The position numbers and the translations under genes are program-made. A DNA stretch of 64,000 bases from Nyssa sinensis (Eukaryota > Streptophyta > Magnoliopsida > Cornales > Nyssaceae): assembly GCA_008638375.1 (NCBI GenBank), contig CM018047.1, forward strand, positions 50,352,679-50,416,678, in the 5' to 3' direction. The notes under the pieces were generated by a model. The model made no database searches. It had not been told where the DNA came from and saw nothing but the letters and a program-made list of their open reading frames with translations. Below, piece after piece: positions 1,661-36,922 of the stretch (its first letter is position 1; each line of letters begins with the position of its first letter).

Positions 1661-1694
<34 letters not shown>

Positions 1695-3400: not shown

Positions 3401-3768
3401 TTTACAACAATACATTTGCTTTATAACTCTCAAATTAAATTAATCTCAACAGTCAACACTCATTAAAGCCTGAATAAGAGAAGTAGAATTGTAAAAAAGG
3501 CGAAAATATCCCAACTATTTGACTGCTTTTGCATCTGCTACAGTTTTGTGCCACAACTCACTACAATAACTTGAAATACTTCCTATTTTTAGCTATAAAC
3601 TAAGAATAAATAATTGAAAAGTCACGTTGCCACCCCTAATCCTACTTTTGAGTCCTTAAGATAGCTTACATGAATACGATCTGTCTAGTTATGCTCTTGA
3701 CAACAACTGAAAGAAAATTTATAATGAACCACCCAAAAAATAAATGTGAATAAATAAAGAACAACCCA

Positions 3769-4084
3769 GTTAAAACAAATTGATATACATTGTTGGGCCC
3801 ATTCTCTAACAGCTTGAGCTTTTAGAGTAATTGGTGATTTAACATGGTATCAGAGCTCTGGTTCGAAGAGGACTTGGGTTCAAGTCTCACCCCGTACATT
3901 TCTCACCCTATTACGTTAGGGTTAACGATTTGCACTCTGTTCTATCAGTGTGCCTCTCCATAAATACTCCTTACTCTTCACATGTAAGATGGGGTTGCAC
4001 GTGAGGAAGGGTGTTAAAACAACTTGATATACATTGTTGGGCCCATTAACAACTTAAGCTTTTAGAGTAATTGGTGCTTTAACA
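3769..4084 (+). mobile_element. TRIM-like element, copy 1 (two LTRs)
   Basis: Two short direct LTRs (about 3769-3844 and 4012-4084) share CTTGATATACATTGTTGG and a GCTTTTAGAGTAATTGGTG core. They begin near TGTTAA and end in AACA. The left LTR is followed at once by TGGTATCAGAGC, complementary to the 3' end of initiator Met-tRNA (a primer-binding site). A GTGAGGAAGG purine tract precedes the right LTR. At 316 bp with no ORF it fits a terminal-repeat retrotransposon in miniature. The flanks AACCC/AACCT may be a degraded target duplication. Confidence 0.75.
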
Positions 4085-4512
4085 AACCTAAAATGAAGTT
4101 TTGAAAATAGGTCTTTCTAAAATGAATGTACATGGGTGGCTTATAGGGTAAAAACTTGTATTAAAATTAAGAGGTGATACAAAAGGAGATTTCCCCAATA
4201 AAGATAAGAGAAAAGGGAAAATGAAAAGAAAAACAAAAGAGATTATAGAAGAATTCTCTAATGTTTCAAAACATTATACAAAGATATAACCACCAAAACA
4301 AAGTTTAAGAAGATAAAAATATATTGGTTTTGTTCCTCTCGTAAATTTTGCAGAAATAGAATTTACAAAACAAGCAATCTTTCCTATGAATTCCTGATTA
4401 CAATGGGGAACTTTTTCCATGCCTACAACTGTCACAAACTAATTTGATCCACCTTAATTTTAAAGTATTTATGCTGATTCAGTAAACTAATAAAAGAAGA
4501 GTGAAGATCTAC

Positions 4513-4623
4513 CTTAGGTTGAATAAGATCGTAATTTATGAATGAGCACCTCTTCCCCATTTTGTCAAGCTTTTCTTTCATTATGCAACTGAAATCATTA
4601 GAACCACAGCAGAAGTCGACTAT
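4513..4623 (-). CDS. EDM2: EDM2-like coding exon 14 (SAM-fold motif), last one in the window
   Basis: Encodes IVDFCCGSNDFSCIMKEKLD and ends YDLIQPK before a GTAGAT donor. The glycine-containing VDFCCGSNDFS loop corresponds to motif I of SAM-dependent methyltransferases; activity has not been shown for this protein family as far as I know. Confidence 0.92.
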
Positions 4624-7600
4624 CTGTTCAAGAAAAAAGTTGCTTATGTATAATGTTGTTGATAACAAAAAACAAGACTAACAACAATAATTGTACAACA
4701 ACAATAAACAAGTTGCTATCAACAGCAAGACTTGGTTTCCAATTTAAAATTTTTCCAGCTTATAAATAAATATCAAAATTTTCTACATCCTTTTTGACAC
4801 TTTTTTTATTAAGGTTTTAGCATTTCTTTGAGCATAATCATATTTCAGGAGCTTCATGATCAATTTAATTCTAAGGATCTTTGTAATGCATGCTTCCCAC
4901 AAAGCAAGAAAAAAAAAAGATTATACTTTGGAGTTTGGAATATACACAGCCTCCAGTGATTTTTGGGTTGAAGTTAAAAATGCTGGAGGGCCCAGCCTGG
5001 AAAGCCTTAGGTATCAAAATCTGCTCCTGTTCAAAGCTACATGAAGTGGGCAAAATATCAGCTCCTCCAATTTCCCTGTTTAAGTTGGATGGGAGTCTAG
5101 GACCCCAATAGTAAACAATACAGGAGATAGGTATTGGCAAGCCAATGAATGGTTTGCAAACCATGAACAAAATTGCAATTCAAATGTGTTCCCAAATGAA
5201 ACCATTGCCATTGAGAACCAACTACCAACAGAGGGAATTTCCATGTACACGAGTTGGAATGGATGGAAGAAAGAACGTATATTTCCTGGGAACAGAAAGA
5301 AGGTTTCATAAACTGGAGTGTCAGCATCAGTCCCCAAAATCTGATTTTGGCTTCAATATCAACCAAGATTATCCTTATAACAGGAAAAACCAAGAACTTG
5401 GGGAAGCGCCACATATTTTCCTCAAGCTAAAGGTGAAAAGATAGCTGCGAAAGAGCCAAATTGTTGCCCTTAGCCATGAGAACATTCCAGATGAGGCACT
5501 GACACAGCAGTCCAACACGGACTGCCACTAATAGGGACCCCATGGAAGTTTACATCAGGGAAAAAAAAATCTGAAGCACCAGTAGCTATGTGAAAAAAAG
5601 AGCTGGTTTGAGCTATTGCCCCCTGATTAGCAAAATAAGCATGAGTCTGAGCCAACAACTCCCCAGTGGTAAAGTCTGTCTTCCGTATTAGGAGAATATC
5701 AAAGTGTTAACTTTAATCAAAGAATTAAGGAAAATATCTTAATGGAACTAATAGTCAAGTCTGGAAACTTACAATACATAGAAAAGAAAAGAACCTTTTA
5801 TAGTAGGGCTAAACAAAAGATACTAAAAAGACTATACTACCCTTAATGATAAGCTAATACACATAGACTAACATGCTAACTATTCTAACACCCCCCATCA
5901 AACTCATGATACGGCAGCGGAAAGCATCGAGAGTTGGTCAAGCAGAAAACGGAAGCGTAACACCGTGTGGGACTTCGTAAAGAAGTCAGCCAGCTGCAAT
6001 GTCGAAGGGAGAAAGAGAAAAGAAATAGTGTCTAGCTAAAGATGATGACACACAAAATGACAATAAATCTCAATGTGTTTGGTACGCTCATGGAAGACTG
6101 AGTTATGGGTTATTTGAATAGCACTCTTGTTATCACAATACATAGGCGTAGAAGTAGGCAGAGAGACACCTAGATCAGCCAATAACTAGTGAAGCCAAAC
6201 AACTTCAGCTGTAGTGGTAACCATGACATGATACACAGTCTCAGCAGAGGAACAAGAAACAACCGTTTGCTTTTTGCTTTTCTACAAAATAAGAGAGCTT
6301 CCCAAAAAAACACAAAAGCCAATAGGAGACTTGTGATCCATAGAATCACCAGTCCAATCAGAATCAAAATAAACACAAAGCTCCAAGGGAGAAGACGAAG
6401 ATAGGAGCAAACTTTGGTGTAAGGTGCTGCGAAGATAGCGTAAGATGCGAAAAATAGCAGCCCATTGAACAGTAGTAGGAGAAGAGACAAATTGGCTGAT
6501 AATATGAACTGCACAAGTGATATCAGGATGTGTAACAATAAGATAGACCAGACTACCAACAAGAGCTAGATATAAAGTGGGATCGGGATTTTCACAAGTC
6601 CAGTAATGTAGCTCCTCATATTCTTTCCCAACAAAAAGTTTCTCATTACATATGCCTAATAGGCATAATTATCTCCTGTCAACTTTACACTAATAACTTG
6701 AAAAGAATCTGAATTTCCACTTGCCATTTTCATAAATATGTGTATCACACAAGCCCAATGCACTAAATAGATCACAAAAGAGTGCAGCAAATAACACCCA
6801 ATGCAATGAGAAGACAACCACAAGTCAAAAACAACAAAACTTAGAGATTCGAACCAAAACCCAAGTTGTTTGTACCACCCAACACATAGTCAACACTTCA
6901 ATCTCACACAAACTTGACCAAAATCAAATCAAACAGTGATGGATGACTCGATCAAACCCATAACAGCCCACGGCGTACCATATAATTGCATAAACCAACA
7001 CAACCAAGGCTCCAATCACACAAATCTTGTCCAAAATCAAACCAAACAACAATGGGTAACTCAATCGAACCCCAAAACGCATCACTCAGAAGGGATTTGA
7101 TGCATCAAAACCAAGAAAATTGCTCAGAAGTCGCTGATCGCAAAAATCAGCCCATTTTTCCTAAAAATATTCAAAAAACATAGCAAACGATCTCAAAAAA
7201 TTACAAAAAATACCAAAATACTTCCCATGAAATTCCAATCCAAACCATGTAGGTCTCGCTCCGATATGATGATGTCATGTTAACATCAGCTGTACGGATG
7301 CTGACATCAGCACCACCCCTATGCTTCATTGAGTCTGACTAATATAGTGTTCTTAATCAACTATGGGTCTCAACCATGCTCTGATACCATGTTAACTTTA
7401 ATCAAAGAATTAGAAAGTAAAAGAGAGAAGAGGAAAATATCTTAATGGAAGTAATAGTCGAGTCTGGAAACTAACGATACATAGAAAAGAAAAGAGCCCT
7501 TTATAGTAGGACTAAACAAAAGATACTGAAAAGACTATACTACCCTTAATGATGAGCTAATACACATAGCTAACATGTTAACTATTTTAACACAAAGATC

Positions 7601-10600
7601 ATCCAATGTAGGAGTTTCTTGCCAAGGAACCGGGGAAACTACAGTCAGACCCATTTGCATTCTGAGACTTAAGAGCTCCAAAATTCACAAGCAGAAAGAA
7701 CTAAGCATTTTCCCTTTGGATCCACATTCCATAACACCTGGATTGGACCCTTTGCGAATCTGGAATTTCTAATTGAATTCAAGATTTGCAACTTCAATAT
7801 ATGGGAAGTACTGTTGCCGGACACAATACATGAGTACATATGGGATATGTGGTACCACATTCCTTCAGGAAGCTTCGGACTCATTTTGATACACAAAGAC
7901 AAGCAAGTGCTTATACATGCATCATGGGCATTGGGCACACAAGGACAAACATCATGTCCAAAAACATTACCCACAAAATCAAGGTCTCCACTCCAACACC
8001 ACCATTTAAGGGATGGTTTCTACCTTGCTCCACTACAATAATTTCCACAAAAAACATGGGATAGGAAAACCTCTCATCAAAAATAGTTTGTTTATAAATA
8101 ACATTTATCCATGGAACTGGCTATCTTGTCCAACATAAACTCAAACCAAGGATCCTATAAAGTGTGCTAGAAGGGCATTATTGTATTTTCACTGTTCTGG
8201 TAATATAAATAATTTTGTATAATATGTGGAATTATTATAATTAAGTACAATACTATAACATAATAGATATGTACTATATAACACATACATATTAGATAAT
8301 TTGAACTAGTAAAATAGATAAAATAACAATTTAAGTAAATTACATAACAAGTTAAGCCTATTATAATTAGTAACTATATATTAAAGTAAATTGTTCACTT
8401 GCTTTTTCATTTTTACTACTACTTTTTCTTTCTCTACTACTTTTAAAAAACAAATAGAGATATTTTCTTGTAATTTGAGTTTCTACTGTTTCGATATGAT
8501 TCGACGAATTTTGGTATGTTGCCAGGGAAACATGTAAATTTTGATGTTCCACTTGTGTTTTGTTTTGGTTCATTGGAAACGGAAATATCTCAGCTGTTTT
8601 GATGGAAAAGAAATGAAATTTTAATCATTGCCCTAAAGTCGCATAAATTTGATTTCAACTTGGTATCAGAACAATCAATTAATATATAGAGACACCCTAC
8701 TATTGAAAAGTTCATCAGAAGTATTCAAAGGAGGCTGACATCATTGTCAGAGACTTGTATGGTATGATTCATCTCCTCTTCGAGAGAATTATGGTGATTT
8801 TTGTGGATTTTCTTGAATAGAACTTTATCAATTTCGAAAAAAACTGGCTCAAGGGGTCAATTTTTTTCATTCTGCATTTTCAGGCGGATCTGATCAGTTT
8901 TGATGCTGAGCTGCAACACATAGGGTGTGTCTAGACCTTTTGTGGCTTCAATTGGTGTTTTGTTCCTGTTTTGGTTGATCGTTGAATCATTTTTTGCAAA
9001 AGGGGGTGGTCGGCTGTACAGTTTGAAGCTTTGGTCAGTCTCCTTGTTCACTGTTCGGCTTCATTCCAACCTTTTTCTTGCTGAGCTACTTGATCCTTCA
9101 ATGATTTCGTATTTTTAAGGCTCTTACATGGGCTGGTGAGTTATTTTTTAACATATTTATCAGTTTTTGTTATTTTTATTGCGAATAGTGCTTCATATAA
9201 TTACTGAGGCATATTGGTAGACATACAGAGCACAAGATAGCACAGAAGACAGACTGGTTGGAAAATTCATATACCTAAAAAGCATGTTAGAACTGTGCCG
9301 CAAAACCTGAAAAGTAAACAGAATGCAGATTGTTCTTACCATGTCACCATTTTGCACATACCAATGGAGCCTCTCAACTATCTGCACAAAGAAACTCAAT
9401 TTGTATGAACTTCAGCCAATGCTTGATCAAGTGAGCATCTGCAGCCAGATCTCAATAGACATACAGCACTAAACTATAACATAATTCTATACTGGATAAA
9501 TAAAATTTTAATGTAAACAACAAAAACAGCCCTCAAAATAAATAACAAGTCACAGCAATTGAAACCCTTCAAAAAAGGCCTTATCCATTTGCAACACATG
9601 AAAGGCAAAAGTAATTCAAATGCATTAAGCTTGTTGACAGAATAAGTAATTATAGTAAGGGTAATTTGGGAGTTCGAGTTAAGTGAGTGCTCTCGGGAGC
9701 ATTCATCAAGTGGGTTTAAACTTCTCTAATTGAAACATAGAAACTTTTTTATAAAAGAACTGAAATGGCATGCATCTCAGAAACTATGCAAAATTGTTGA
9801 GCCATAAGATTAAATCAGGACCCTTTTAGGTTGGGTCATGCAAAAACCCTTTCCATAACCTTTAGGCTGTAACATAAGTCAAAGATAGTTGATATGAGCA
9901 AGATTGCCAAGGAAATAAGGTAATTACAGAAAGGGCACTAGGTAATAATGTTATTTCACTAAAATATATATATTAAAGTCAGAAGCAATAAGTTTGTCAA
10001 GATGAGAGGTATATATTGGAGACGGTCATCAATCTTTTTCTGATATTTTTTCTTCATCATTGCTGACTTCTTCTTCACAGTATTTAACTTGTATATATTG
10101 CAAAAGTCAAAGGCCATAGTTTCTTAAGAGAATAGCTAAATAACTATACATAGGACAATGTTTCACTGGGTTATTCTTCTTCTTTAAACCTTAATTTCCT
10201 AATGTAACCAACTTAAACTTTGCCTTCTTAAACTAACTACACAGACCTGCCAATTAACCAACTTGGTCTCTGATCAGTCTAGCCATAGAAAGAAGCTGCC
10301 CGAGTGATCTTGAAAGAAGGCTATCTAAGATTGTTGTCTCAATCTTCTTCTTCTTCTTTTATTTTTTTAATCTTTGAGCCTTGCATCCGTACAATGGCCA
10401 ACAAGCCAACTTGGTATAAGACCAATCTAGTCATGAAAGAACATCGCACAATGTGAGAGGTTGATATAGATTGTTGGACCCATTCTCTTATAGATTAAGA
10501 TGTTGGAGTAACTGGTGATCTAAAATGGTACTCCCTCCGTCCAAGTTTAAGAGTCCCTTATTCCATTTTTTGGTGTCCCAAAATAAAAGTCCAGTTTAAA

Positions 10601-13600
10601 AAATCAATGCATAAAGTACCATGAAATTTCCAAATTACCCTTTTTTACCAATGTCAAAAGGCGCACAAGGGTCCAGATGTTTTTGACTTCGGGTGTTGGA
10701 TTGAGAATTCTTTTTGATTTTGACTTTGGGCGTTGAACATTTAATGTGCTGCAAAACAATTAAACTGCTCCACTGACTTTTTATTACCAGGAGCCCTATA
10801 TAAAGTTCTCACCAGAAGCCATGCTGCAGTGTAAAAAAGGATATCAAAAAATATATATATCTCTCTCTCAGCTCTGTAAAATCCTCTTCTCCCTGCCATT
10901 TATATGAGACTAATAAAGCTCTTGTATTGTGAAGTTTGTGGCTTACACTCATCTACATAGTGACTATGGTGAACTCCTACCACAAGATATTGGTGATTGT
11001 AGAAGGTATTAGAGTACATGAAACATCCTGTTGCTGCAGTTACCGTGTTTGAGGTAAGGCGGTAAGAAGGTAAACCTGTTTATATTTCCGCATGTACATG
11101 TACATTATTCTAACAATCGATTTGATGTGATAACTAATGTGAAAGGAGGTTAGTTTTGAAAAATTGTACTTTCCAGTCAACTGTGAAAGCATTCAATGCA
11201 TGTCCCCTTGAAAAGTTGGTTTTCCCAAGAGAGACAGAGGGAGTATCAATTATCTTACCTCCTTAAGCTTGTCCACTTTAGTAAAATGGCGACCAAAAGA
11301 TGTGTAGCGCATGCCATGGAGAAAGGGGGCAAGATAGACCTTGAGCTTCCCCTGCACAGTGTAAGCAAATCAATCAGTATGCTACGGAAGTTTTTAATCA
11401 AACAGCTACTTGGTAATCCTTAATGATTAATAGACAGTAGATAGGCAGTTTCATGACTTTTTTTTTGTCCAGACAAACAGGATCACACGGACATAGATGC
11501 TTTTGAGGCTGTGTCTTAAGCATACTGGCACATCAATCTTGCACTCCAAAACTGTCATACTATTTTTGTAACATACAAACACAGAAACTAAAATAACATA
11601 CGTGTTAAAAATAAATAATAGAAATGATTGTTTCAATGTAATTTCTTGTGGGTGATTGTTTCAATGTAAGTAAGATAGTTTACACAATGAGAATACAGAG
11701 AAACTCAATCCTTATGAGAACAGTCAATATTATTTGACAATTATTTTTGACCATAAAGAAACACTAAGGATTAAAAAAATGGAACATAAACTGTGTATGC
11801 TAAGTGCACCTCTTGTTCTTTGGGTTTAGAGGTGAAATGAATTCTAAAGTCAGGAGGACTGATTTCTTACCCAAGGGATTTTTAACACTTTGCTACCTTT
11901 TAGAGGTCAATTTTATCCTTGGAGAGCTAGTCCTTTAATGTTGTTTTGAATCATTGTGTATGGTTAAATACCAATGATATAAAAACCTAATGATAAATTA
12001 GTTTACCACTCCAAGTTCAATTAATAAGAATTAAGACACACAAATAAAAATAACTTTAATTAATAACCTAGGCTGAATTACTATCTAAGACACCCTCTTG
12101 TTGGGTTTCTAAGAGAATGAATTTATGTATATAAAGCCAATCACAATAAAGAAAGCAAAATAAAAATGAGAGAATGAGACAAAGTTTTAAAGTGGGAAAA
12201 CCCTATTAGTTCAAAAGAAACCAACTAATCAACAAAAAATAACAACATAAGTCCACAAAGACAATTCTTAAGAAATTAACCTACCACGATCCTATAAATT
12301 ACCGCTAGTATTCTTATAGAATTTCTTTTCAACCCATGTTGATTCCCTTGATTAATCCTGCACAGCCTTCAACGCTTCCACGATTCACAAACCCACCACT
12401 CCTGCAATGTGCAACTGACTGTGCAATGTATGCGCCTATCCTACTATATAACCCTAACAATGTACTTTCTTATACCTGGGTATATAAGCTTCTCACACAA
12501 AGTGCTCACTCTCAAGAAAAACTGACTATAAATGAAGCAAAATATTACTCAATATAATTCTAGGTTCAAGAGGCTTGAGATAGCTTGGTACCCTACATGA
12601 GACACATCAACGTCCTCATATATTATGAGACAAAAACCCTAGTCTACAATGGAAAAGTTGTCTCACAACCAATAAATAGAAGCATCAGAACAGGTCGCGT
12701 TTGGACTGTTGAGAGAACTTGATATACATTGTTGGTTCATTGACCATTCTCTAATAGCTTAAGGTTTTGGAGCAATTGGTTGCTTAACATGGTATCAAAG
12801 CCTTGGTTGTGGGAGGTCTTGGGTTCAAGTCTCTCCATTTTCATTTATTTCCCATTTGCATTTGCATTCTCTTCTGTTTGTGTTTCTTTGCCTCTCTATG
12901 TGCGAGTCCGGAGTCGCATATGAGGGGGAGTGTTGAGATAGCTTGATTTACATTGTTGGTCCATTGACCCATTCTCCAATAGCTTAAGCTTTTGGAGCAA
13001 TTAGTTGCTTAATATGGTATCAAAGCCTTGGTTGTGGGAGGTCTTGGGTTCAAGTCTCTCCATTTGCATTTATTACCCGTTTGCATTTGCATTCTCTTAT
13101 GTCTATGTTTCTTTGCCTCTCTACGTGCGAGTCTGGAGTTGCACGTGAGGGCGAGTGTTGAGAGAGCTTGATTTACATTGTTAGTCCATGCTCTAATAGC
13201 TTAAGCTTTTGGAGCAATTGGTCGCTTAACATGGACGACTAAAAGTCTCGTGTTTGAATGAGACTCTCGTAATTTTCCATAGTTCGAACAGGTCGCCATA
13301 TACCGCGCTTGAATAGGTTAAAACACCGGAAGATTTTACAACATTTAAAACACCATTATATTCAAACAAGATATATGACCGATCAAAAAAAATATTCAAA
13401 TTAGATATATGGCGTTCAAACGAGCCCTATTTTGATTTGTCTCTTTCGAACAAGAATAACTCGTATTCGAAGTAGAGAGGTTTTGTCCCTCTTGCTTGTA
13501 TGACACTTAATTAAAATTTAACTCCAGAATTTTATATAACAATTATCAAAGGTCAAATCTAACCTATAGTCCAAACTTCTACAATCCTAACGTAATGTAA

Positions 13601-25600: not shown

Positions 25601-28600
25601 TGGTTTATCTCACTATGACACTCCTAGACATCACTTTTGTTGTTGGTGTCTTTAGTCAGTTTATGCATGTTTCTCGTAAGCCTCATTGGGAGGCTATCTA
25701 ACGTATTCTTCAGTACCTCAAGGGCGCACCAAGTATGGGACTGTTATGTAGGCCATCATCATCTTTATCTGTTACTGGATATTTGAATGTTGATTGGGCA
25801 GGCAACCATAGTGATCAAAGGTCTACTTCTAGTTATTGTACATTTGTTTGGTGATAATCTAGTTACTTAGTGCAGTAAAAAATAGAATATACTCGCACAC
25901 TCTAGCGTTGAGGCTGAGTACTGTTCCATGGCTCATTATTGGTCCGATCTGTACTTCGCGATATAGGTGTTGCTATGTTGATAATCAAGTAGCTATCTTC
26001 ATTGCCAATAATCCAGTGTGTCATGAATAAACCAAATAAATTGAGGTTGATTGCCACTTTAATAGGGATCTTATCATGTAGAAGCAGATTGTCACTTCGT
26101 ATATTCAATCTGGAGCTCAGCTAGGTGATATTTTACCAAGTCATTGCCTGAGGCCACCTTCAAGGTCTATGTTCCAAGTTGGGCATATCTGACCTATATG
26201 CTCCAGCTTGAGGGGGAGTGTTAAGAGTTCTTATTTTTAGAGCTTATATATTATTGTGTTATATTCTAGGATATTCCAGGATATTTGAATTAGGGGCAAT
26301 ATTGTAATATTTTATTTCTTTACATTTAATAATAGTTGGTGGTGTCTAGATGAGATAACACACAACCAATTCTTGTTAAGTTATTCTTCACTCGGTTCTT
26401 CCTTCTTTTTTCTTTTTCTCCTTATGCAAACCCTGAACACACTACAACTTATACCTTAATTCATTTACCTTGGACTTTGAGAGGCATGAGAAATGTATTT
26501 GTTATGTGTACTTTCAAGGGAAATGTTAAGAAAGAAAGATGTATAGCATGGTGGTGATGGAAAATTGCATGAACTATGTTTTCTGTAGAAAAACTCCTCA
26601 GAACAGTCCACTTTAGGGGACTGTATCTCCCCACCTCTGTGGAATTAGAAGGTGATCCTTGTGTAGAATTAAACCTCTCCCTCTTAGCTTTCAAATGACT
26701 CATGAATGACACTGATTGGGTCGAAAATGAGCTAGTTATGATCATTTTACCAAAACTGTACATATTCTGACCCTCAGTGACATTTTGGCTTATATCTTGA
26801 GCTACAGGCACTCTTTTTGAGTGATTCCAAAGTCCATGGGAACTAGACTCATAATAGAACATATCATAAAAATCTCACTCTGTCAGGTTTTGTGGATAAG
26901 GAGATAGGAGAGTCCAAACTGGACTGACCTGCACTGTGAACAGAGCAGGAATGAACCCGAGCTACTGCCCAATGCATTTTTCCCCGGCAGGCTGCAGCCA
27001 TTTCACGCTTATTCCCTGATCTTTTGTAGGTGTTTTATTCCCAAAATATTTAGGTGGTATTCCCACATACTTGAGAATATATTTAATCATGATAGTATGG
27101 AAGTTAAGTATCAAAGGATAATATAAATCAAGAAAACCTTGAAGGAAGTCAAGTCTTTCCTTGAGGAAGTCTGGCATGAAAGTTGATTAACTTGTACAAA
27201 AAAAATAAGATTGATTTTTTTAATGGACTATCATAACTAAGTTAATTTACAATCTAAGTTGTACTACCTATATCATACTAGTTAAGGGGGGTATTTGATG
27301 GACTTAAAGGGTGACTTGGCAAGGGCTCGGGATTATTATATTGGTCTTGGGAGATAAAGTAACCACTTGAGAAATATGACTTTTTCACTTGACTATTTCA
27401 CTCAAGATTAATTGGATACTTAAAAAGAGATTAATTAGAGTTCATGTGGAGTTGCATGCGACTCCGAATACTCATGTAATGAGTATTGCATTTACATGAA
27501 AAACAAAGAGGTAATGAACCAATGGACCTTAATCCAATAAAATATTAACCCCGTATGATTCAACTTGAAGTCTTAATTAATTAAAATACTCGGATTACTC
27601 GAATGAATCTTGGAACTCGGGTTCAACCTCGGGTCTATGAGGCAACCCCCCCCCCCCCCCTTTGGTGCGTACAAGCACCCCTAAGGGGCATCCACAAATG
27701 TTGGTTAAGAAGAACTAGGCCAACTTGTTTCGCTATTATTCTACTAGAAGAGAAAAATGTTAATAAAATCAAAAGGATCAAATGAAAGGCAACTAGCAAG
27801 ATAAAACTTGCTGCAATCAATGTATATATCAATTAACATGTAATACAGTTCATGCACGTATATTCAACATCATGCTTCTTTTCAAATTAAATGAATAACC
27901 AAATAAAAAGCTCCATGGATGGTTTAACACCATGATTGTGCAAAAGTTCTCAATGAATGGACTATCCTTGACCAATGATAATTGACCCAATAATAATAAT
28001 CAAATGAAATTACCAAGAAGGCAGAATCTATGCATTAAATTATAATTTGGCTTCGAATTCTCAGAAGAGTTAAACCTCTGCACCAGAAGATTTATTGGAA
28101 GAGCCCAACATGCCACAAACAAAGCACTGATGCAGCTGATATTGACAATTTTTGCACAGGAAATTTTGAATTGCCTGCATACAACCAAATAATGCTTAAA
28201 CAAAAAAGGAGCAAATCTTCAAAAGAAAATTAATCATATTTATGGCAAAAACAAGCTCATACTTCAACTTGAGTATCAATATAGCCAAGAGATTCGCAAA
28301 AAGAATCAGCTCCAGCATTTGCAGTTGCATGAAAGGATCTTATGCACCTTCCTTCACAACTGTATTGAATGGGAAAACAGAAGAAAACAAATAAACAAGA
28401 ACAAAAATCAGATAAAATTACTCAACAGGATAATGCCAAGTCAACAACAGGGCTAAACATAAACCTTCTTAAAATTGTAACCAAAAAAAAAATACTTTGA
28501 AGAAAGAAACAAGCTTTTCATTTATTGGAAGGAAGGAAGAGACACGGAAAGAGGTGGAAACCTTACGTAGAAAGAGAAGACAGAAAAGCACAAACATTAG

Positions 28601-31600
28601 AGGCAACAACCACAGTGCAGAAGAACAGAAGAAGAAGAAGAAGAAGAAGAAGAAGAAGAAGAACCACAAATTAAACCCAAATGCAACAATATAAGGGACA
28701 TGTACCAAACCACGTAGGATTCCATAAGTATTGGTGTCTTCCACAGTCAAAAGCTAATTCACTATTTGCTGTACCTGGAACTCATGATAGCATACAATGA
28801 AGAGAGCCAACAGACTACCCAAAAATGTGAAAAATATCTCCATAGTCCTTCCATTTGGCACCAAGTGAAACACTATCCAGGAGTCGCATCTGAAAAAACT
28901 CACTAAACCTCTAATTGGCTTCTATAAAGCCCCATCCCATCCATTGTCTTGGACATAATAAAAGGGATAATTTCACAAATTTTATTATGAGAAAGACGAT
29001 GCATTAGTGGAGAATAATAAGAACCAAATGAAGGAGAAGTCATTCAAGATATTAGAGAACAAAAAAAAAAATAGAGAGTGAGAGAGAGAAAGAAAGAAGG
29101 AAGGAAACAAAAGAGATACAGACCAATTCAGAAGTTATAAAAGTCCGCATAAACATGTCCAACACCTATGCATACTGGGTTTCTATATAGCAACCATCAC
29201 AACTTAATCTGAAGGAATTTGAAGAAGGTGAAATCATCAAGATGGAGGCAGACAACAAGACAGGTTGAAAGAAATGAGAAAAGGAAACCAGAAACACATG
29301 GTGACTTTGTTAGTTTTAAGTCTTTTCCACTGTCCACCTTGAAAATGGTGCCAGTTGTAATTCCTCCACAAAGTACTCCCCGAGTCATGAAGCTTGTTGT
29401 CAGAAACAGGGAAATCAACATCTACCATCAAACTATAAATCAAATCCACTAAATATATTCAAGAAGAATTTAATATTTTCTTAAGACGTTGACCTCCCTG
29501 AAGCAGATAAAGATCTTCATCAGATTGTTTTTCTTTCGCTCATGAGCCATCTAATGAGTTTGATCATTAGATGCTGTTGTCCCCCTAATTAATCCACCTA
29601 ACTCTACACTACTACATTGAACTTGCTTCTTTTCTACAAAAAAATCTCCTTAAAGTTGTTCTCTAAATAGATTTAGGAGTCCCACTGAATCTGACATTTG
29701 CTTGCTTCCGCCTTATCACAATGTCCTTAATCTCTTTCAAAAAATTAGCCTTCACCTCTCTCACACTTCTAAATATTCTTTGTTTAATCTCCGTCCTAAT
29801 AAATTTGAGCAATAAATAAAGAAAAAGGAAGAAGAAGAAGAGTAAAGGGAAGATGATTCTTATTAGTGTTGAATGTCACAGAAAAGACTTGTATTACATA
29901 AAAATAAAACAACCCTTTACAGAAGGGTCACACAAAAGAACAAAAAGACTAAACTACCCTTAATGCTAATAATGCTAAGTACTCTAACACTCCCCCGCAA
30001 ACCTATGATGCGGCAGCAAGAAACATCAAAAGTTTGTCAAGCAGAAAGCGGAAGCGCATAGTGTGAGATCTCGTAAAAAAGTCAGCCAACTGCAATGTAG
30101 AAGGAAGAAATTGTGCCCAGAAGATGATGGTGCACAAAATCGCAATCGATTTCAATGTGTTTGGTCTGCTCATGAAAGACTGAGTTGTGCGCTATTTAAA
30201 TGGCACTTTGATTATCACAATACATAGGAGTAGGCGTAGACAACAAAACGCCAAGATCAACAAGCGGCCACCGTAACTAAACCATCTCAATTGTACTAAC
30301 AACCATGGCATGATATTCAGCCTTGGCAGAATAACGAATAACAACAATCTATTTCTTGCTTTTCCAGGAAATAAGAGTCACCTAGAAAAACACAAAAACC
30401 AGTAGTGGACTTCCTATCCACTGGATCCCCAGTCCAGTCAGCATCAAAATAAGCTCGAAGCTCCAAAGAAGAAGATGAAGGAAAGAGCAAACTCTAATAC
30501 AAAGTTCCTCGAAGATAACGAAGGATGTGTTGAACAACAGCCCGAGGAAGAGTGGTAGAAAAAGACACAAATTGACCAACAATATGAACTACATAAGCAA
30601 TATCAAGTCGTGTAACAATGAGATAGAACAAGCTGCCAACAATAGCTCGATATAAAGTAGGATCAAACAATGGAACACCATTAGAAGAAGAATAATGAGC
30701 ATTGAGCTCCAAGGGGGTCTCAATTGTATGAGTATCTGTAAGTTGGGCTCGCTAAATAACATCAAACACATACTTGCACAAAGATGGAAGATAACCTTTA
30801 GGAGAAGAAGCAACCTCAATGCCCAAGAAATAATGAAGAGGACCAAGATCAATTAGGTGATATCTTCACCAAATCATTGGCTTTGTCTATGTTCAACCAT
30901 TCGTGTTTCAAGATGGGCATATTTGATATCTATGCTCTAACTTGAGGGGGAATGTTAGAGTTCTTATGTTTAATTCACCATTTTCTTTTATTTTTGTTTT
31001 ATTCTAGGATATACCAGAATATTTAGTGAGGGTAATATTGTAATTCTTTCATTAAATTTTAAATTGTATAAACAACTAGAAGACTGGAACTGAAACCAAT
31101 AAAATTATAATTATCTTATATCTTCTCCTTTTCTTCTCTCTCTCTAAAACCCTATATTTACACATACTGTACTTCTCAATTGATTCCCTAGTTTAGATAT
31201 TGCACAATACAGGGGTCTTCTTTGTTCGCTCATATTACAGTGCTTTGGTGGGAGGTAGTGGTGCGAGTTCCCATAGAAGATGATTTAGGATTCTAGAGGT
31301 TCCTACAAAGGCAATATTTTTTGGCTTGGACAGCCATGTGGGAAGCAATTCTAACCATGGATAATTTGCAAAGGAGGGATTTCATTTTGGCTAGTAGATG
31401 TTGTATGTATAAAAAGGAAACAGACATAGTCAACCATCTTCTACTCCACTGAAAGGTGGTGAGAGACGGGTGGAGTCTTCTTCTTTCTCTCTTTGGTTGT
31501 GTGTGCATTATGCCCGCCTTAGTGAAAGGTCTCCTTTCGAGTTGGGGAGGGAGGATGAGGAAGGACTTGAGAAGAGTTTGGTACTCCTTTGGTGCTTGTG

Positions 31601-34382
31601 GTGGGAGAGAAATAGGAGGATAATTGAGGGGGAAGAACTATCCCCTTCCTAGGTTTAAGGGTAGTTTTTTTTAAGATATTACACTTTTGGGTTGAAGAGG
31701 CTTATCCTATATTTTGAGAGCTAACAACTTAAGCTTTTGGAGCAACTGATTGTTAACATGGTATCAGAGTCATATTTATAAGAGGTCTTAGGTTCAAATC
31801 TCTCCATTTGCATTTATTCCCTTTTGGTTAATATGTGCAAAGTTGCACTCTTTTTTGCTCCACGTTTGTCGTTTTTTATGCCTCTCCACATGTGAGTTCG
31901 GGTCACACGTGAGGGGGAGTGTTGAGAGTTTGACAATCATTGTTGGCCCAATCTTTGACAGCTTGAGCTTTGGGAGCAAAAGGTTGCTTAACTTTATGTA
32001 TATAGTCTCTTTTGTTGATTTTTTTGGAGGTTCTTCGGCTGTAGTCTTTATGCCGAGTCCTCTTTGTATATGCGTTCACCCTCCTCAAGTGGCTTTAATA
32101 CAAATTATAATTTACTTATCAAAAAAGTATTTCCTGTAACAATTGCATGAAAATGATACATTTAGAACAGTAGACATTGAATGAATGGGCTGTTTTGATA
32201 GTTTTAGATTAATAAAATTACGAAGGAAAAAGATATGACATGGTAAATTGTGGAATTTACTTTGACACTTGAGTTACATTGTAGAACTTTAAAGCATCTG
32301 AGTAGTTCAAAACGAAGAGATTCAGAATCTGCAGAAGATACGTGCATACCAGAGAACTTCACCGCCATTGTCACAAAGTGCACAAACAGAATCATACATT
32401 TGATTCTCGTTTTCATTACATCCATCATCTTCATCGTCATCTGGATCAACTATAAACTTTGATTTCTTTATTGTTCGATTCTCCTGCCATACAAAGTAAG
32501 TAGACTTAACCAAAGATTGAAACTTCAACATCAAAGAAAGGGAAGGAACAAAGGCAATATACAAGCAAGAGGGTTAACTTTTCACACTGACCTCATCTAA
32601 AGCTTTCCTTTTCCCAGGCATCTCAAGAAGAAAACAAACCAGATACTGTTCAAGATAATACTTATCAAGATAGTAACGTGTATATATAAGATCTAAGAAA
32701 CACGGATACATACACGGGACATGAATTCAACATGACAAGACACAGACATGCAGACACGTTATTTCTCAAAAAAGAAGGACATTGACACGTTAGGGACACG
32801 TTGAATATATATATATATATATATCTGTATATATTTTATATGACCATATAATAAAAATCTAATATTATTTCAATTAAAATTAGAATAAAAATACATGAAT
32901 TTTAAAAATATTATTAAGATATTAAAATAACAAACCCATTGAATAAAAATTAAATAATTTCTTCACTTAATCATCAACATCCATGATTCAAGTGTCCGGA
33001 CACATGTCCAGGAAGTGTCCAAGAGTGTCAGTCTCCGACACGGACACGTGAGCCAAAACAGAGTGCCCATGCTTCATAGTATAAATAAATACACATAGAC
33101 ACATGCAAATATATGTATAGATCCTTGTTAACTAGATGCATAATTTATTTAACTTTTCTTTGCAACAGCATGCGGCAGAAATCAGTTAAAAAAATATTTT
33201 AATCAACAAAAGCGACTCTCTATCAAGGATTATGAATAAAAATTTCTGCAACAAAGACCGCCAAAGAATACCTTACAAGCTAATTAAATTTGTTTAAAAT
33301 AAGGCTTACTTTGACACATAGAATGGGTTAATTTTGTGCAAAATGAGAAGCAACTGACCAAACACACCCATGGGTCAGTTTTGTTCATTCCTTGCACACC
33401 TAGATGACTCTGGGATGCTTTCTAAATATAGAGGTCATCAAACATTTTTCATTTAAATTTTGTAGCTTAAAAGTGCTGTCAAGATGACAACCATTCTGTC
33501 TCTAAAACTCCCTTGAATAATAAAACAATGGACATTCCTATTTTTATCCCCCAACGTCATTGCAGACAATTTGTCCAGAATTTGTGTCTAACAATGAACC
33601 AAATGATTTGTTTTGGAACCACAAGCTTGCACACAGAAACTCTTTATATGTTGATAACTTGCTGCACAACAAGTGAATCAAATATATTATATACGCGATT
33701 TAGTTCTATATGACAATCTTTGCACATAAGGTGAATCGTAGAACGGCTTAATCATAGCGATAAATAATAGAAGCCTCATGAACCTTAGATTTTGCTATAT
33801 CTTTATCCCTTATTGCAGCTTCATTGATTAATGCCAAGTGATCCAACAGATCATTCTCAGAAGGCTTGACCTCATATGAGCTGCAAATATAAGCAGGCGA
33901 TTTAATTTTGCCAAAAACAATCAACATGATACAAAAGAGATCAATTGATGATACAACTACGCAAACCTGAAAGCTTTCAGCAAGTGTTTCCATAGGGCAT
34001 CTCCAGATGCATCTTGATTCTTTTTCACGAAGTGGAGGCAGTAAACTGTGATCAAAATTGTTTTAACAGTAACCTCAAAACTCTTCCTCGGCTTTTGGAG
34101 TTTCATCCAGGTTTTATCCTTGGAAAGCAAATAAATCTCAGGCAGCGCATATGAAAGTTCAAACTTCCATGCTATGACCTTCTTGTAGATTTGCTGAAGC
34201 CCGTCATCTGCACTTCCACGCAAGAATATCTGTGCACTGAAGCCTTCTGGGATCTCATCCCCACTCCACTGCCACTGAAGTGGCAAAGTGGAAAATGAGA
34301 TGGGTTCTCCCTTAAAATTAACAAAATGGTAATTTGTGATGCAATCTGGGATAATCTCACCCTCTTCATCAGAAGATGCCAT
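4513..34382 (-). CDS. EDM2: EDM2-like PHD-finger protein, 14 coding exons, 3' part off the window
   Basis: In Arabidopsis EDM2 is a nuclear PHD-finger protein that reads H3K9me2 and controls splicing and polyadenylation of genes with intronic heterochromatin, including the immune receptor RPP7. Coding exons (high to low): 34382-33967, 33880-33784, 32645-32592, 32483-32350, 28359-28263, 28174-28076, 16894-16647, 16517-16428, 16334-15804, 15644-15497, 15396-15295, 11351-11259, 9381-9340, 4623-4513. All 13 junctions are GT-AG and in phase, giving 754 residues without a stop. Residues about 1-171 are the conserved N-terminus, an acidic stretch is near 200-215, PHD-type Cys/His fingers span about 223-385, a basic Ser-rich linker is at about 412-589, and a methyltransferase-like region with VDFCCGSNDFS starts at 673. 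The start ATGGCATCTTCT matches the N-terminal register of the family. The next exon (DWMTV-type) was not found below 4513, so the gene continues leftwards or is truncated. Confidence 0.93.
5705..5890 (-). repeat. 3' LTR of the 5.7-7.6 kb copia element
   Basis: 186 bp, begins TGTTAACTTTAATC and ends TTCTAACA. It lacks an 18-bp purine-rich stretch present in the other LTR. Confidence 0.85.
7390..7592 (-). repeat. 5' LTR of the 5.7-7.6 kb copia element
   Basis: 203 bp, begins TGTTAACTTTAATC and ends TTTTAACA. It adjoins the Met-tRNA primer-binding site. Confidence 0.85.
8178..8628. mobile_element. Degraded hAT-type MITE, relative of the 17.0-kb element
   Basis: The right end GAAATGAAATTTTAATCATTG aligns with the GAAACGAAACTTTGATCCTTG end of the element at 17043-17723. 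Shared internal stretches include TACTACTTTT, a run of ATATTTTCTTG and CACTTGTGTTTTG-type sequence. The left end is unclear and no target duplication was found. Confidence 0.5.
8661..9120 (+). other. Possible copia leader remnant with primer-binding-site-like start
   Basis: TGGTATCAGAACAATC at 8661 resembles a Met-tRNA primer-binding site, followed by T/G-rich sequence in the style of copia leaders. No LTR or gag is recognisable. Confidence 0.25.
9340..9381 (-). CDS. EDM2: EDM2-like coding exon 13 (42 nt)
   Basis: A 14-codon exon reading IVERLHWYVQNGDM between GTGCAG and GTAAGA. Confidence 0.9.
10452..10530 (+). repeat. TRIM-like solo or truncated LTR, copy 2
   Basis: Matches the TRIM LTR (GAGAGGTTGATATAGATTGTTGG, CATTCTCTTATAG, TTGGAGTAACTGGTGATCTAAAATGGTA). 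It is cut off inside the primer-binding site, exactly at the TA where the Stowaway-like element starts. Confidence 0.65.
10531..11243. mobile_element. Stowaway/mariner-like element with TA duplication
   Basis: The left end CTCCCTCCGTCC and right end GGACAGAGGGAG-type sequence (reads CTCCCTCTGTCT on the other strand) are inverted repeats flanked by TA (10529-10530 and 11244-11245). CTCCCTCCGTCC is the classic plant Stowaway terminus. At 713 bp it is long for a MITE and has no transposase ORF. An internal CCCTATATAAAG box near 10795 looks like a TATA element. Confidence 0.65.
11259..11351 (-). CDS. EDM2: EDM2-like coding exon 12
   Basis: Encodes KLKVYLAPFLHGMRYTSFGR, highly conserved at the start of the methyltransferase-like domain. 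The donor GTAAGA lies 13 bp from a Stowaway-like insertion. Confidence 0.93.
12707..13231 (+). mobile_element. Tandem TRIM-like array: LTR-internal-LTR-internal-LTR
   Basis: Three LTRs (12707-12789, 12931-13014, 13156-13231) alternate with two internal regions. Each internal region starts with TGGTATCAAAGCC, a Met-tRNA primer-binding site, and ends with a GTGAGG/TGAGGGGGAG purine tract. The whole array is bounded by one perfect 5-bp duplication, TGGAC (12702-12706 and 13232-13236). One insertion followed by unequal recombination between LTRs explains this. No ORF is present. Confidence 0.85.
13600..13715 (+). repeat. Possible tRNA-derived SINE fragment
   Basis: Contains a B-box-like GAGAGTTCAAGTCCCC after CCTCCCCATATGGGAGG and ends at a TA microsatellite (13720-13745). 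An A box is not convincing. Confidence 0.35.
13720..13745. repeat. (TA)n microsatellite
   Basis: Simple TA run directly after the SINE-like sequence. Confidence 0.9.
13930..15294. other. EDM2 intron 11 sequence without recognisable gene
   Basis: Part of the intron between exons 11 and 12. The stretch 14815-15065 is open on the plus strand for 81 codons and less AT-rich, but it shows no domain and I do not call it a gene. Confidence 0.6.
15295..15396 (-). CDS. EDM2: EDM2-like coding exon 11
   Basis: Encodes AVQTALKKLKEGCTIEDAKA and VCEPEIINQISRWK. Acceptor CTGCAG, donor GTTCAT. Confidence 0.9.
15497..15644 (-). CDS. EDM2: EDM2-like coding exon 10
   Basis: Encodes ILALMENSTSSFKLEEFI and a segment ending VEGSVQ. 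Phase in is 2, phase out is 0. Confidence 0.9.
15804..16334 (-). CDS. EDM2: EDM2-like coding exon 9 (linker)
   Basis: The longest exon (531 nt). It starts DHKIIPELGTPERNHILFP and continues as a Lys/Ser-rich linker of low complexity. It is the least conserved part of the protein. Confidence 0.9.
16428..16517 (-). CDS. EDM2: EDM2-like coding exon 8
   Basis: Encodes the RAWDGLLPNRILIYC segment typical of EDM2 proteins. The sequence just before it (IVFECSFDKNIHQ) is more divergent. Donor is GTAAGT. Confidence 0.9.
16647..16894 (-). CDS. EDM2: EDM2-like coding exon 7 (PHD/ePHD fingers)
   Basis: Encodes VFPCVSATCGHFYHPKCVA, then FTCPAHKCFVCKQGENK and CRRCPRSYHRKCLPR, the zinc-ligand-rich core. 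The acceptor is TTCCAG and the donor is GTACTC. Confidence 0.93.
17043..17723. mobile_element. hAT-type MITE with perfect 8-bp target duplication
   Basis: Terminal inverted repeats start CAAGGATCAAAATATCGTTTC (left) and CAAGGATCAAAGTTTCGTTTC (right, other strand). TTCACGGG is duplicated exactly at 17035-17042 and 17724-17731. An 8-bp duplication and CA...TG ends define the hAT superfamily. The subterminal regions are full of GAAACGTTTC/CGAAACG motifs, typical transposase-binding repeats. No ORF. It inserted 148 bp from the acceptor of EDM2 exon 7. Confidence 0.85.
20142..20370 (+). repeat. 5' LTR of the nested copia
   Basis: 229 bp, TGTTAGTCAG...AATTGACA. It contains a TATATAATAC box near 20325 that may be the promoter TATA. 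Confidence 0.95.
20371..20382 (+). promoter_or_regulatory. Primer-binding site (initiator Met-tRNA type)
   Basis: TGGTATCAGAGC, immediately next to the 5' LTR, is complementary to the 3' end of plant initiator Met-tRNA. Confidence 0.9.
20621..21274 (+). pseudogene. gag C-terminal part and start of protease of the nested copia
   Basis: Open for 217 codons. It begins in the C-terminal half of copia Gag (RPEFEATHSNLMNRD), so the N-terminal gag domain is deleted. Two zinc knuckles follow: CFGCKEYGHIVVHC is intact and CNYYKKQGHFIRKC has lost its second Cys. The protease motif reads WLIDSAASNHM, with Ala in place of the usual Gly after DS. The frame stops at a TAG and the protease continues beyond it. 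Confidence 0.85.
21275..22597 (+). pseudogene. Protease end and integrase of the nested copia
   Basis: From LSVGQLVEKN the frame continues through the integrase. The zinc-binding motif is WHKRLGNPN...CSVCKLGK, where Asn replaces the second His of the HHCC motif. The catalytic triad is readable: D in IVHSDVWG, D in LRSDSGGEY and E in NGVAERKNRHLL. A proline-rich spacer (about 22440-22597) ends at a TGA. Confidence 0.85.
22598..24117 (+). pseudogene. Reverse transcriptase and RNase H of the nested copia
   Basis: RT motifs appear in order: AIGCKWVFSIK, YEETFAPVAKM, DVNNAFLHGDL, LYGLKQAPRAWF. The catalytic YVDDIVI box is present at about 23250 but in a different frame, so there is a frameshift just before it, and a TAG at about 23320 follows. 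RNase H follows at 23740-24110 (YSDADWAGCPDTQRSVTG, STESEYRAMS, HADNTSAIQI) and ends at a TAG shortly before the domain's usual end. Confidence 0.88.
24205..24217 (+). promoter_or_regulatory. Polypurine tract of the nested copia
   Basis: ATTTGAGGGGGGA directly before the 3' LTR, the usual primer for plus-strand DNA synthesis. Confidence 0.85.
24218..24446 (+). repeat. 3' LTR of the nested copia
   Basis: 229 bp, same length as the 5' LTR with six substitutions and no gaps. Confidence 0.95.
26220..26463 (+). repeat. 3' LTR of the older copia (right border uncertain)
   Basis: Starts TGTTAAGAGTTC after a GAGGGGGAG tract. Related to the copia LTR at about 30956 (shared TTCTAGGATAT and GGGCAATATTGTAAT-type blocks). 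The end near 26463 is a guess. Confidence 0.6.
26464..28062. other. EDM2 intron 6 remainder, unclassified repeats
   Basis: Minus-strand open stretches at 26461-26862 and 26962-27177 have no recognised domain and read like repeat-derived sequence. An AT-rich block at 27290-27600 and a C14-15 run (27646-27660) follow. No gene is supported. Confidence 0.4.
28076..28174 (-). CDS. EDM2: EDM2-like coding exon 6
   Basis: Encodes AIQNFLCKNCQYQLHQCFVC, completing the first finger and opening the second. It is in phase 0 at both ends. The following intron to exon 7 is 11.2 kb. Confidence 0.93.
28263..28359 (-). CDS. EDM2: EDM2-like coding exon 5 (PHD finger)
   Basis: Encodes CEGRCIRSFHATANAGADSF and ends DTQVE before a GTATGA donor. 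It supplies Cys and His ligands of the first finger. A 4-kb intron packed with copia and LINE debris separates it from exon 4. Confidence 0.93.
28621..28662 (+). repeat. (GAA)n trinucleotide repeat
   Basis: About 12 near-perfect GAA/AAG units in the intron between EDM2 exons 4 and 5. On the transcribed strand of EDM2 this is a (TTC)n pyrimidine tract. Confidence 0.95.
29865..30850 (-). mobile_element. Copia remnant (3' LTR and RNase H), minus strand
   Basis: Same family as the 5.7-7.6 kb element. An LTR end CTCTAACACTCCCCCGC lies at about 29985 with a purine tract on the minus strand. Minus frames hold RT/RNase H text (HYFLGIEVASSPKG at about 30830, VGSLFYLIVTRLDIAY, YFDADWTGDPVDRKSTTGF). 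The 5' half is missing and it abuts a plus-strand copia end at about 30850. Confidence 0.75.
30850..31200 (+). mobile_element. 3' end and LTR of another copia, plus strand
   Basis: QLGDIFTKSLALSMF marks the end of a copia RNase H frame, followed by ACTTGAGGGGGAA and an LTR starting TGTTAGAGTTC at about 30956. The LTR resembles the one at 26220. Fused head-on to the minus-strand remnant at about 30850. Confidence 0.65.
31230..32125 (+). mobile_element. LINE 3' fragment interrupted by a TRIM
   Basis: Decayed zinc-binding end of LINE ORF2 (RDFILASRCCMYKKE-type text at about 31375-31420, then LLWCLWWERNRRIIEG at about 31585-31630). The 3' tail continues at 31993-32125 after the TRIM. Ends near a short A-run at about 32120. 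Confidence 0.65.
31711..31992 (+). mobile_element. TRIM-like element, copy 4
   Basis: A shortened left LTR (31711-31758, ends GTTAACA) is followed by TGGTATCAGAGTC, an internal region with GTGAGGGGGAG, and a right LTR (31920-31992) ending GGTTGCTTAAC. It is inserted in the LINE tail. Confidence 0.7.
32350..32483 (-). CDS. EDM2: EDM2-like coding exon 4 (acidic stretch, first zinc ligands)
   Basis: Contains FIVDPDDDEDD and DSVCALCDNGGEVLC, the first Cys pair of the first PHD finger. The last codon is split with exon 5. Confidence 0.93.
32592..32645 (-). CDS. EDM2: EDM2-like coding exon 3 (54 nt)
   Basis: An 18-codon exon reading YLVCFLLEMPGKRKALDE between AACAG and GTCAGT. It is too short to show as an ORF but was found from family colinearity and matching phase. 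Confidence 0.85.
32693..33081. mobile_element. 'GACACG' TIR element, copy 2
   Basis: Left end CTAAGAAACACGGATAC, right end GTGCCCATGCTTCATAG. The interior ATATGACCATATAATAAAAATCTAATATTATTT matches copy 1 in several blocks of 20 bases or fewer. It lies in the intron between EDM2 exons 2 and 3. Confidence 0.6.
33784..33880 (-). CDS. EDM2: EDM2-like coding exon 2
   Basis: Encodes SYEVKPSENDLLDHLALI and the following helix. The acceptor is TTTGCAG and the donor is GTTCAT. Phase in is 2, phase out is 0. Confidence 0.93.
33967..34382 (-). CDS. EDM2: EDM2-like coding exon 1 (start codon)
   Basis: Residues 1-139 in part. It starts MASSDEEGE and contains EPISFSTLPLQW and ALWKHLLKAF. It ends in phase 2 before a GTTTGC donor. 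The first in-frame ATG is at 34382; the preceding TTG is not needed. Confidence 0.93.
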
Positions 34383-35662: not shown

Positions 35663-36173
35663 CTAAGAAGCACCGACATGGATACGACATGACACAGATA
35701 CGCAGACACGACATTTCTCAAAAACATAGGACACATACGCAAGGGATAGGTTGAATATATATGTATTTTTATTTTTGATATGACCACATAATAAAAAAAA
35801 CTAACGTTATTTAATCCAAAGTGGTATAAAAAACACAAATTACAACAATATTATTAAGTTATCAAAATAAAATACAAATTTAGACACTTCGTCTTTAATC
35901 ATCAACATCAATAATCCAAGTTCCAAAATAATTTACTAACTACTACAAAGAACTTATATATGTATACATATAACCTAAAAAAGCACCAAAAAAAAGAGGA
36001 AATGGGAAAAATCTAAAAACAAAAACAAAAAATGTGTCCCAAACATGTCCAAAAAATTGTCCTAATGTGTCTGAAACGTGGCCGAAATTCAAAAAATTTG
36101 GGTACTCTTTTTTTCACTTGTCCGACACGTGTCCGACAAGAATACGAGAACCAAAATAGAGCGTCCATGCTTC
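35663..36173. mobile_element. 'GACACG' TIR element, copy 3, with possible 8-bp duplication
   Basis: Left end CTAAGAAGCACCGACATGG, right end CCATGCTTCATAA. Flanks CTCCTAGG (left) and CTCCTAAG (right) may be an 8-bp target duplication with one mismatch, which would point to the hAT superfamily. Confidence 0.55.
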
Positions 36174-36290
36174 ATAACTCCTAAGCACCATTGGCATTGC
36201 CCATGTTAAAACAAACAAAAGGAAATCAATAAAAATAACAAAACCAAAATGGCAATTGCAAAATCAATTGCTCCATAAGCTTAACCATTA

Positions 36291-36475: not shown

Positions 36476-36477
36476 AC

Positions 36478-36728: not shown

Positions 36729-36922
36729 ATAATAAAGCAACAAGTAAAGTGCCTTCATCATTGACCTTGCAAATAATGCACTAACCAGTGTCCAGATGTC
36801 AAAAGTCAGGATTTCGTCCAAAATTGTTGTCCACCCAAAAGAGAGCAACACAGAAGGAAAAAGATCAATTGAAAATGCAGCATTTCTGTCACCCACTGCA
36901 GTGAGTTATGTTAGAATTAAAT

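Follow-up and report, generated by a model that had tools for sequence, protein, structure and literature searches.

The stretch of Nyssa sinensis DNA analysed here (64,000 nucleotides, henceforth the window) carries on its minus strand the first 754 codons of an EDM2-like gene. The gene model was built by requiring GT..AG introns and agreement with the N. sinensis protein F0562_011217 (P0001), and comprises 14 exons between positions 34382 and 4513, totalling 2,262 nt. All 13 complete introns are GT..AG, the frame is free of stops and frameshifts over the 754 codons, and the translation is identical to residues 1-754 of P0001. The count and span of the original prediction, 2,262 coding nucleotides over 29.9 kb in an intact frame, were thus reproduced by an exact spliced model, with an in-window span of 29,870 bp. 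Introns sum to 27,608 bp (mean 2,124 bp), the long ones measuring, in order, 1,138, 3,990, 11,181, 3,943, 1,877 and 4,716 bp. P0001 has 1,147 residues, the final 393 of which are encoded to the left of window base 1, so the gene exceeds 34 kb; a complete gene in the window was rejected, as intron 14 passes out of the left end.

Exon 1 (33967-34382, start codon at 34382) encodes an N-terminal DNMT1-RFD domain (PF12047, E 2.1e-9, 33.3 bits against a cut-off of 22), and is followed by exons 2 (33784-33880) and 3 (32592-32645). According to the spliced model and Pfam, exon 4 (32350-32483) holds the first part of PHD1 and exon 5 (28263-28359) the rest, PHD2 starts in exon 6 (28076-28174), and exon 7 (16647-16894) supplies PHD2 and a variant PHD. 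The NSD-type PHD module was recognized by PF22908 (PHD_NSD; 70.6 bits against 23.9, E 1.5e-16), with PF23004 (23.9 against 27) and PF23011 (23.6 against 27) falling under their cut-offs. Exon 8 (16428-16517) encodes KIVFECSFDKNIHQR, where the Arabidopsis thaliana EDM2 peptide differs (EISFEDIEDEDILTR); exon 9 (15804-16334) encodes a linker, and exons 10 (15497-15644), 11 (15295-15396), 12 (11259-11351) and 13 (9340-9381) lead to the final in-window exon 14 (4513-4623), which contains the DFCCG motif of the methyltransferase-like domain. The NPPFG motif of the same domain is also present in P0001, encoded outside the window.

In an alignment of 54 rows, P0001 retains all invariant and near-invariant PHD Cys/His columns, and the methyltransferase-like positions D720, C723, G724 and N783-F786 are invariant columns. 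Where the remaining 53 rows are 90% conserved, it differs at three positions, all conservatively. A decaying pseudogene or an assembly chimera might be suspected in a very large, transposon-filled gene of a transposon-rich genome; we consider either extremely improbable here, as the 754 codons are uninterrupted, the splice sites all canonical, the conserved residues nearly all kept, and P0001 is 82% identical to a Davidia protein over the full query length.

For phylogenetic placement, FastTree was applied to 77 proteins picked from 220 fetched, and IQ-TREE to 31 of these 77. FastTree placed the gene in a clade of 35 rows with support 100, and IQ-TREE recovered the same clade A (13 rows, 100/100) next to a clade B (14 rows, 100/99). 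Clade A includes the Nyssa EDM2-like gene and proteins of Davidia, Cornus, Camellia, Actinidia, Vitis and others, and clade B those of Arabidopsis suecica, Camelina and Carica together with the Nyssa locus F0562_010029. AU tests, with groups named once the first tree had been seen, rejected Brassicaceae EDM2 inside clade A (p = 0.0011) and the Nyssa EDM2-like gene inside clade B (p = 0.0008). Proteins of A. suecica, Camelina and Eutrema stood in for Brassicaceae EDM2, that of A. thaliana (which we take to be AT5G55390) not having been retrieved by name. The Brassicaceae rows EISFEDIENEDIFTR, EISFEDIEDEDIFTR and EISFEDIEDDDILTR show 2, 1 and 1 differences, respectively, from the A. thaliana peptide EISFEDIEDEDILTR (PMC7529245), which resembles KIAFEDLEDEDIIQR of the Davidia clade B protein, unlike the Nyssa EDM2-like peptide encoded by exon 8. 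Trees and tests strongly support the Nyssa gene as a member of a core-eudicot sister clade of EDM2, and not as the orthologue of Arabidopsis EDM2. Of the original designation as an EDM2 homolog, membership in the EDM2 family holds; identity with EDM2 proper does not, the gene falling into clade A. This separates two EDM2 paralogues to which annotations give a single name.

The duplication is dated to the base of the core eudicots or somewhat before, because Tetracentron and Nelumbo are placed differently between the trees; monocots are placed outside it. In the FastTree phylogeny, both paralogues occur in Nyssa, Davidia, Cornus, Actinidia, Malania, Bertholletia, Cephalotus, Liquidambar and others. 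In the literature searched, clade A was nowhere found described as an EDM2 paralogue of its own in core eudicots. In Nyssa, the EDM2-proper locus is annotated in two pieces with consecutive numbers, F0562_010029 (N-terminal) and F0562_010030 (C-terminal), and probably lies on the same chromosome as the EDM2-like gene. A partial further EDM2-proper copy, F0562_010034, is numbered close by.

The two clades differ in their C-termini. The median number of residues after NPPFG is 193 in clade A (31 of 35 rows; four rows without exact NPPFG, three of them reading NPPFA or NPPFS, were left out), 480 in clade B (30 rows) and 489.5 in the outgroup (12 rows). Short models occur in clade B with 31 residues (Nyssa F0562_010029) and 67 residues (Salix), and P0001 itself has 360 residues after the motif, which ranks it with the longer proteins of clade A; it terminates in a remnant, NGWLMK. 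An FxPGP-like motif is found in 0 of 31 clade A and 24 of 30 clade B rows, a YxPxLD motif in 0 of 24 clade A, 14 of 18 clade B and 6 of 12 outgroup rows; among the clade B rows devoid of YxPxLD, those of A. suecica and Camelina retain the FAPGP...GWIND/GWIDD end. As judged from the alignment, the C-terminal extension is largely gone from clade A, whereas the RFD, PHD and methyltransferase-like core is retained. In passages of PMC2956552, the extension of Arabidopsis EDM2 is called an activation domain, from unpublished data, and a long C-terminal extension is said to be confined to eudicots. In our 54-row alignment, Magnolia, Aristolochia, Musa, Asparagus, Dioscorea and an orchid have long extensions too, and these share the FxPGP-type end. 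Arabidopsis EDM2 and the Nyssa gene share the RFD, the NSD-type PHD module and the methyltransferase-like domain; they differ in duplication clade and in the long extension, which the Nyssa clade largely lacks. Functions should not be copied from Arabidopsis EDM2, since clade A, though it has the reading core, lacks most of the tail reported to act in activation.

The structure prediction for P0001 is of low confidence (mean pLDDT 53) with weak fold matches. In Foldseek searches with this model, the best match was the DNMT1 RFTS (E 1.1e-4), and the adenine-specific methyltransferase M.BseCI was a weak match ranking after two RFTS matches (E 3.6e-4). These data bear on a reading in which the N6-adenine-methyltransferase-like domain would act on RNA, as in rice OsEDM2L, and the intron content would be irrelevant to function. 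The invariant motif residues and the M.BseCI match are compatible with it, as are osedm2l mutants, in which m6A is reduced and one transcript is spliced differently according to parts of PMC9990323 and PMC11332222. OsEDM2L belongs to the same family and has the methyltransferase-like domain (PMC9990323, in part), but it is a monocot protein that the trees place outside the duplication, and it lies outside clade A. Considering also the low confidence of the model, we find this reading possible but doubtful.

The long introns harbour several retrotransposons. About 75% of intron 6 (16895-28075, 11,181 bp) consists of elements as hand-drawn. A young copia of 4.3 kb (20142-24446, plus strand, antisense to the gene) was delimited by LTRs of 229 bp each (20142-20370 and 24218-24446; 6 differences, Jukes-Cantor distance 0.027), and the target-site duplication CTCCT. 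It carries an RVT_2 domain (Pfam E 3e-48), an E-value that, like those of the RFD and PHD_NSD matches, speaks against chance similarity; stops break its reading frames. It is nested inside an older copia remnant (17267-25434, plus strand, likewise antisense), whose integrase-like, SH3 and reverse-transcriptase pieces flank the young element on both sides. The SH3 and one RVT_2 piece of this remnant scored above the Pfam cut-off, rve and another RVT_2 piece below it, and its LTR-like end (17267-17723) resembles 8255-8630. The one open stretch outside annotated elements that was tried, 26464-26874, gave no Pfam match.

Intron 13 contains a short, internally deleted element in sense orientation (5705-7592, minus strand) with LTRs (distance 0.062) and the target-site duplication CAAAG. 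Its open stretch matched 0 Pfam families; we assign it to copia because it has LTRs and, on visual inspection, RT/RNaseH-like text, and because the DNA of 6056-6208 (minus strand) matches the young copia at 69%. A remnant of the same family lies in sense orientation in intron 4 (29887-30664, minus strand; 73% identical to 5767-6584), and the two of its open stretches given to Pfam returned 0 families. Introns 11 and 4 further contain TRIM-like sequences on the plus strand, namely an array with a 225-bp unit and a tRNA-Met-type primer site recognized by eye (12703-13234) and a further copy (31721-31993). The in-window part of intron 14 (1-4512) holds a LINE remnant with a zf-RVT match (964-1302, plus), a weak copia RT match below the Pfam cut-off (195-419, plus), a MITE-like inverted repeat with 185-bp arms (2626-3149) and a TRIM-like copy (3769-4084, plus). 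Window self-comparison and Pfam on chosen open stretches found no LINE or MITE copies within 4513-34382. Intronic copia and TRIM-like copies were confirmed as originally described, whereas the sole LINE and the sole clear MITE-like element found sit to the left of 4513.

Across the window, the TRIM-like family occupies six sites (3769-4084, 12703-13234, 31721-31993, 36470-36732, 37522-37836 and 40153-40426), and an unclassified repeat family three (2536-3414, which contains the MITE-like inverted repeat, 32734-33093 and 35686-35926). Searches of the whole window gave 0 Rfam matches at gathering score and 0 tRNAs (ARAGORN, bacterial setting). AATAAA is not depleted in the sense strand of the introns (30 observed against 25.5 +/- 4.9 expected), and a selective loss of canonical poly(A) signals from that strand was rejected on these counts; in antisense orientation, 43 were observed against 29.2 +/- 6.0 expected.

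By hand annotation, with the intron-4 remnant drawn to 31059, elements account for 13,014 of 27,608 intron bases (47%), a figure not strictly comparable with the repeat-library value of 66.4% reported for the Nyssa genome in PMC6877568. Relative to the means given in the same source, 7,728 bp of intron and 6.42 exons per transcript, the total intron length of the gene is about 3.6 times and its mean intron about 1.5 times as large. The self-repeat share is 19% for the introns, 14% for 34.4-51 kb, 26% for 1-4512 and 3% for 51-64 kb. The transposon load looks ordinary for the Nyssa genome, the annotated share not exceeding that of the genome. In rice, parts of PMC7145194 report 4,227 of 37,866 gene models with heterochromatic introns, and 980 of 1,967 transposon-containing introns without overlap to heterochromatic introns. 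Since about half of the rice transposon introns are not heterochromatic, intronic transposons alone do not imply dependence on EDM2. The rice genes, studied in connection with OsIBM2, are transcribed and resemble the Nyssa gene in their long, transposon-rich introns; their methylation was measured (PMC7145194, in part), whereas that of the Nyssa gene is read from a sequence footprint.

For this footprint, CAG and CTG (CHG sites free of CpG) were counted against dinucleotide-preserving shuffles in 17 segments. Depletion was found in intron 4 (observed/expected 0.64, z -5.0), the older copia (0.66, z -4.2), the rest of intron 6 (0.79, z -2.5), intron 11 (0.58, z -5.0), the intron-13 sense copia (0.74, z -2.5), the in-window part of intron 14 (0.73, z -3.3) and the intergenic segment 34.5-44 kb (0.65, z -6.2). 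Not clearly depleted were the exons (1.07), short introns (0.91), intron 2 (0.92), intron 12 (0.87, z -1.2), intron 13 as a whole (0.93), the young copia (123 observed, 134 expected; 0.92, z -1.3), and the Harbinger-like region (0.86, z -1.6) and BTB gene (0.93) described below; the intergenic segment 44-51 kb was not depleted (1.00). Pooled old elements had 141 CAG/CTG sites against 226 expected (0.62), with one exception among eight (32734-33093, 1.22), and unannotated intron 293 against 352 (0.83; stretches ranging from 0.44 to 1.52). The two intronic TRIM-like copies tested were strongly depleted, with 3 of 19.5 and 3 of 9.7 expected sites. Of the deamination products, CAA/TTG exceeds expectation in several of the depleted segments (z +2 to +3.4) and in the young copia too (z +3.2), TAG/CTA hardly at all.

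This pattern fits a history in which most older intronic elements were long CHG-methylated within the gene, with the proviso that the footprint is indirect and neither dates the methylation nor reports the state of living tissue. Intronic heterochromatin is plausible because the old elements show this deamination footprint. CAG/CTG depletion by element age thereby offers a cheap sequence test of whether intronic transposons have lived as heterochromatin.

In Arabidopsis, RPP7 and IBM1 have heterochromatic introns at which EDM2, together with IBM2 and AIPP1, suppresses early 3' ends, and a further 55 genes may be under the same control, according to parts of PMC7529245 and PMC10241880. Like RPP7 with its EDM2-regulated COPIA-R7 (PMC7529245, in part), the Nyssa gene has copia in its introns, and an H3K9me2-dependent choice of 3' ends is conceivable. 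Short RPP7 transcripts are described as ending in the 5' LTR of the element, which we take to be in sense orientation (PMC7529245, in part). By contrast, the large copias of the 11-kb Nyssa intron run antisense; copia elements in sense orientation are confined to introns 4 and 13. Antisense elements stay eligible: GER5 carries an ONSEN in antisense orientation within the 3' UTR and is likewise responsive to edm2 (PMC10241880, in part). Attention to 3' ends therefore belongs on introns 4 and 13, and not only on the 11-kb intron. A second parallel is the intron sensor of IBM1 (PMC11265718, in part), likewise a chromatin regulator, with an intron sequence variable across species; the Nyssa gene may similarly have heterochromatin in an intron of its own. 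The dependence of IBM1 on intron methylation has experimental support in that source, whereas the Nyssa gene, here as in the comparison with RPP7, is known from its sequence.

The original prediction went further and proposed that the protein encoded by the gene may be needed for transcription through its own heterochromatic introns, so that its loss would lower its own full-length mRNA. The retained PHD and methyltransferase-like core and the transposon-filled introns with a CHG footprint would be in keeping with such a loop, as would the EDM2 ChIP signal already reported at the Arabidopsis EDM2 locus (PMC7529245, in part). With that signal in print, self-binding of EDM2 is not a new idea; in the accessible parts of the literature examined, self-regulation of EDM2 via its own introns was found nowhere beyond PMC7529245. 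The line used for ChIP, however, bears an HA-EDM2 cDNA transgene under the native promoter, and exon and promoter reads could partly derive from it. Moreover, H3K9me2 at Arabidopsis EDM2 rises in edm2-2 and ibm1-4, the opposite of RPP7, as stated in the same source. The Nyssa gene also belongs to a clade other than that of Brassicaceae EDM2, one largely without the C-terminal extension, and EDM2-proper exists in the same genome. The gene's own product is not known to act like EDM2, because it is of the sister clade and most of the extension is missing. A truncated Nyssa EDM2-proper as a cause of self-dependence was rejected, its C-terminus being annotated as F0562_010030. We therefore hold the self-dependent loop to be very unlikely. 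The transposon-loaded introns and a footprint of long-term CHG methylation over most older elements stand, and the gene's own product was probably the wrong choice of protein.

Our preferred reading, to which we assign a probability of roughly 65%, is that of an intact clade A EDM2-like gene with long introns filled by retrotransposons as expected in a repeat-rich genome, and served by general machinery in trans. Retrotransposons would have accumulated in the long introns, the older ones having been, for the most part, long CHG-methylated heterochromatin. Transcription and splicing would nonetheless proceed through the roughly 28 kb of intron inside the window, as the published gene model suggests. 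At heterochromatic introns prone to premature transcript ends, the IBM2-AIPP1-EDM2 machinery would favour the full-length form; it would presumably be provided in trans, for the most part from the EDM2-proper locus F0562_010029/010030, and dependence on the gene's own protein need not be assumed. Against this reading stand introns 2 and 13, which as wholes carry no footprint, one old element that also lacks it, the scatter among unannotated stretches, the weakness of the TAG/CTA gain that deamination should bring, the CAA/TTG excess in the young copia, the undepleted intergenic segment 44-51 kb, and the larger than average size of the gene, with its 3.6-fold total intron length.

A more elaborate arrangement would be a circuit of two paralogues. 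EDM2-proper would recognize heterochromatin in the introns of the EDM2-like gene and determine how much full-length product this gene yields, and the EDM2-like protein, with its eroded tail, would compete with EDM2 or dampen its action at targets common to both. The co-occurrence of both paralogues in Nyssa, Davidia, Cornus, Actinidia and others and the retained core with an eroded extension, in Arabidopsis said to be an activation domain (unpublished data in PMC2956552, in part), speak for it; a conserved circuit is not implied, however, the intron insertions having been examined in Nyssa, and we rate the arrangement as rather unlikely. More speculative still, the EDM2-like paralogue could be a client of the EDM2 machinery, its intronic heterochromatin being read by EDM2-proper (perhaps by the paralogue too) and its full-length output reporting genome-wide H3K9me2. 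If true, the two paralogues would form a dosage loop comparable to the intron sensor of IBM1.

Outside the EDM2-like gene, a tRNA-like, SINE-like stretch was seen by eye at 36290-36450 (plus), where ARAGORN and Rfam returned nothing. A PIF/Harbinger-like region extends over 51746-55027 (plus); Pfam gave no match in its other open frames and identified a DDE_Tnp_4 transposase fragment at 54419-55027. Adjoining the EDM2-like gene, an ankyrin and BTB/POZ gene lies at 56829-59706 (plus), with BTB recognized by Pfam and the ankyrin part by eye.
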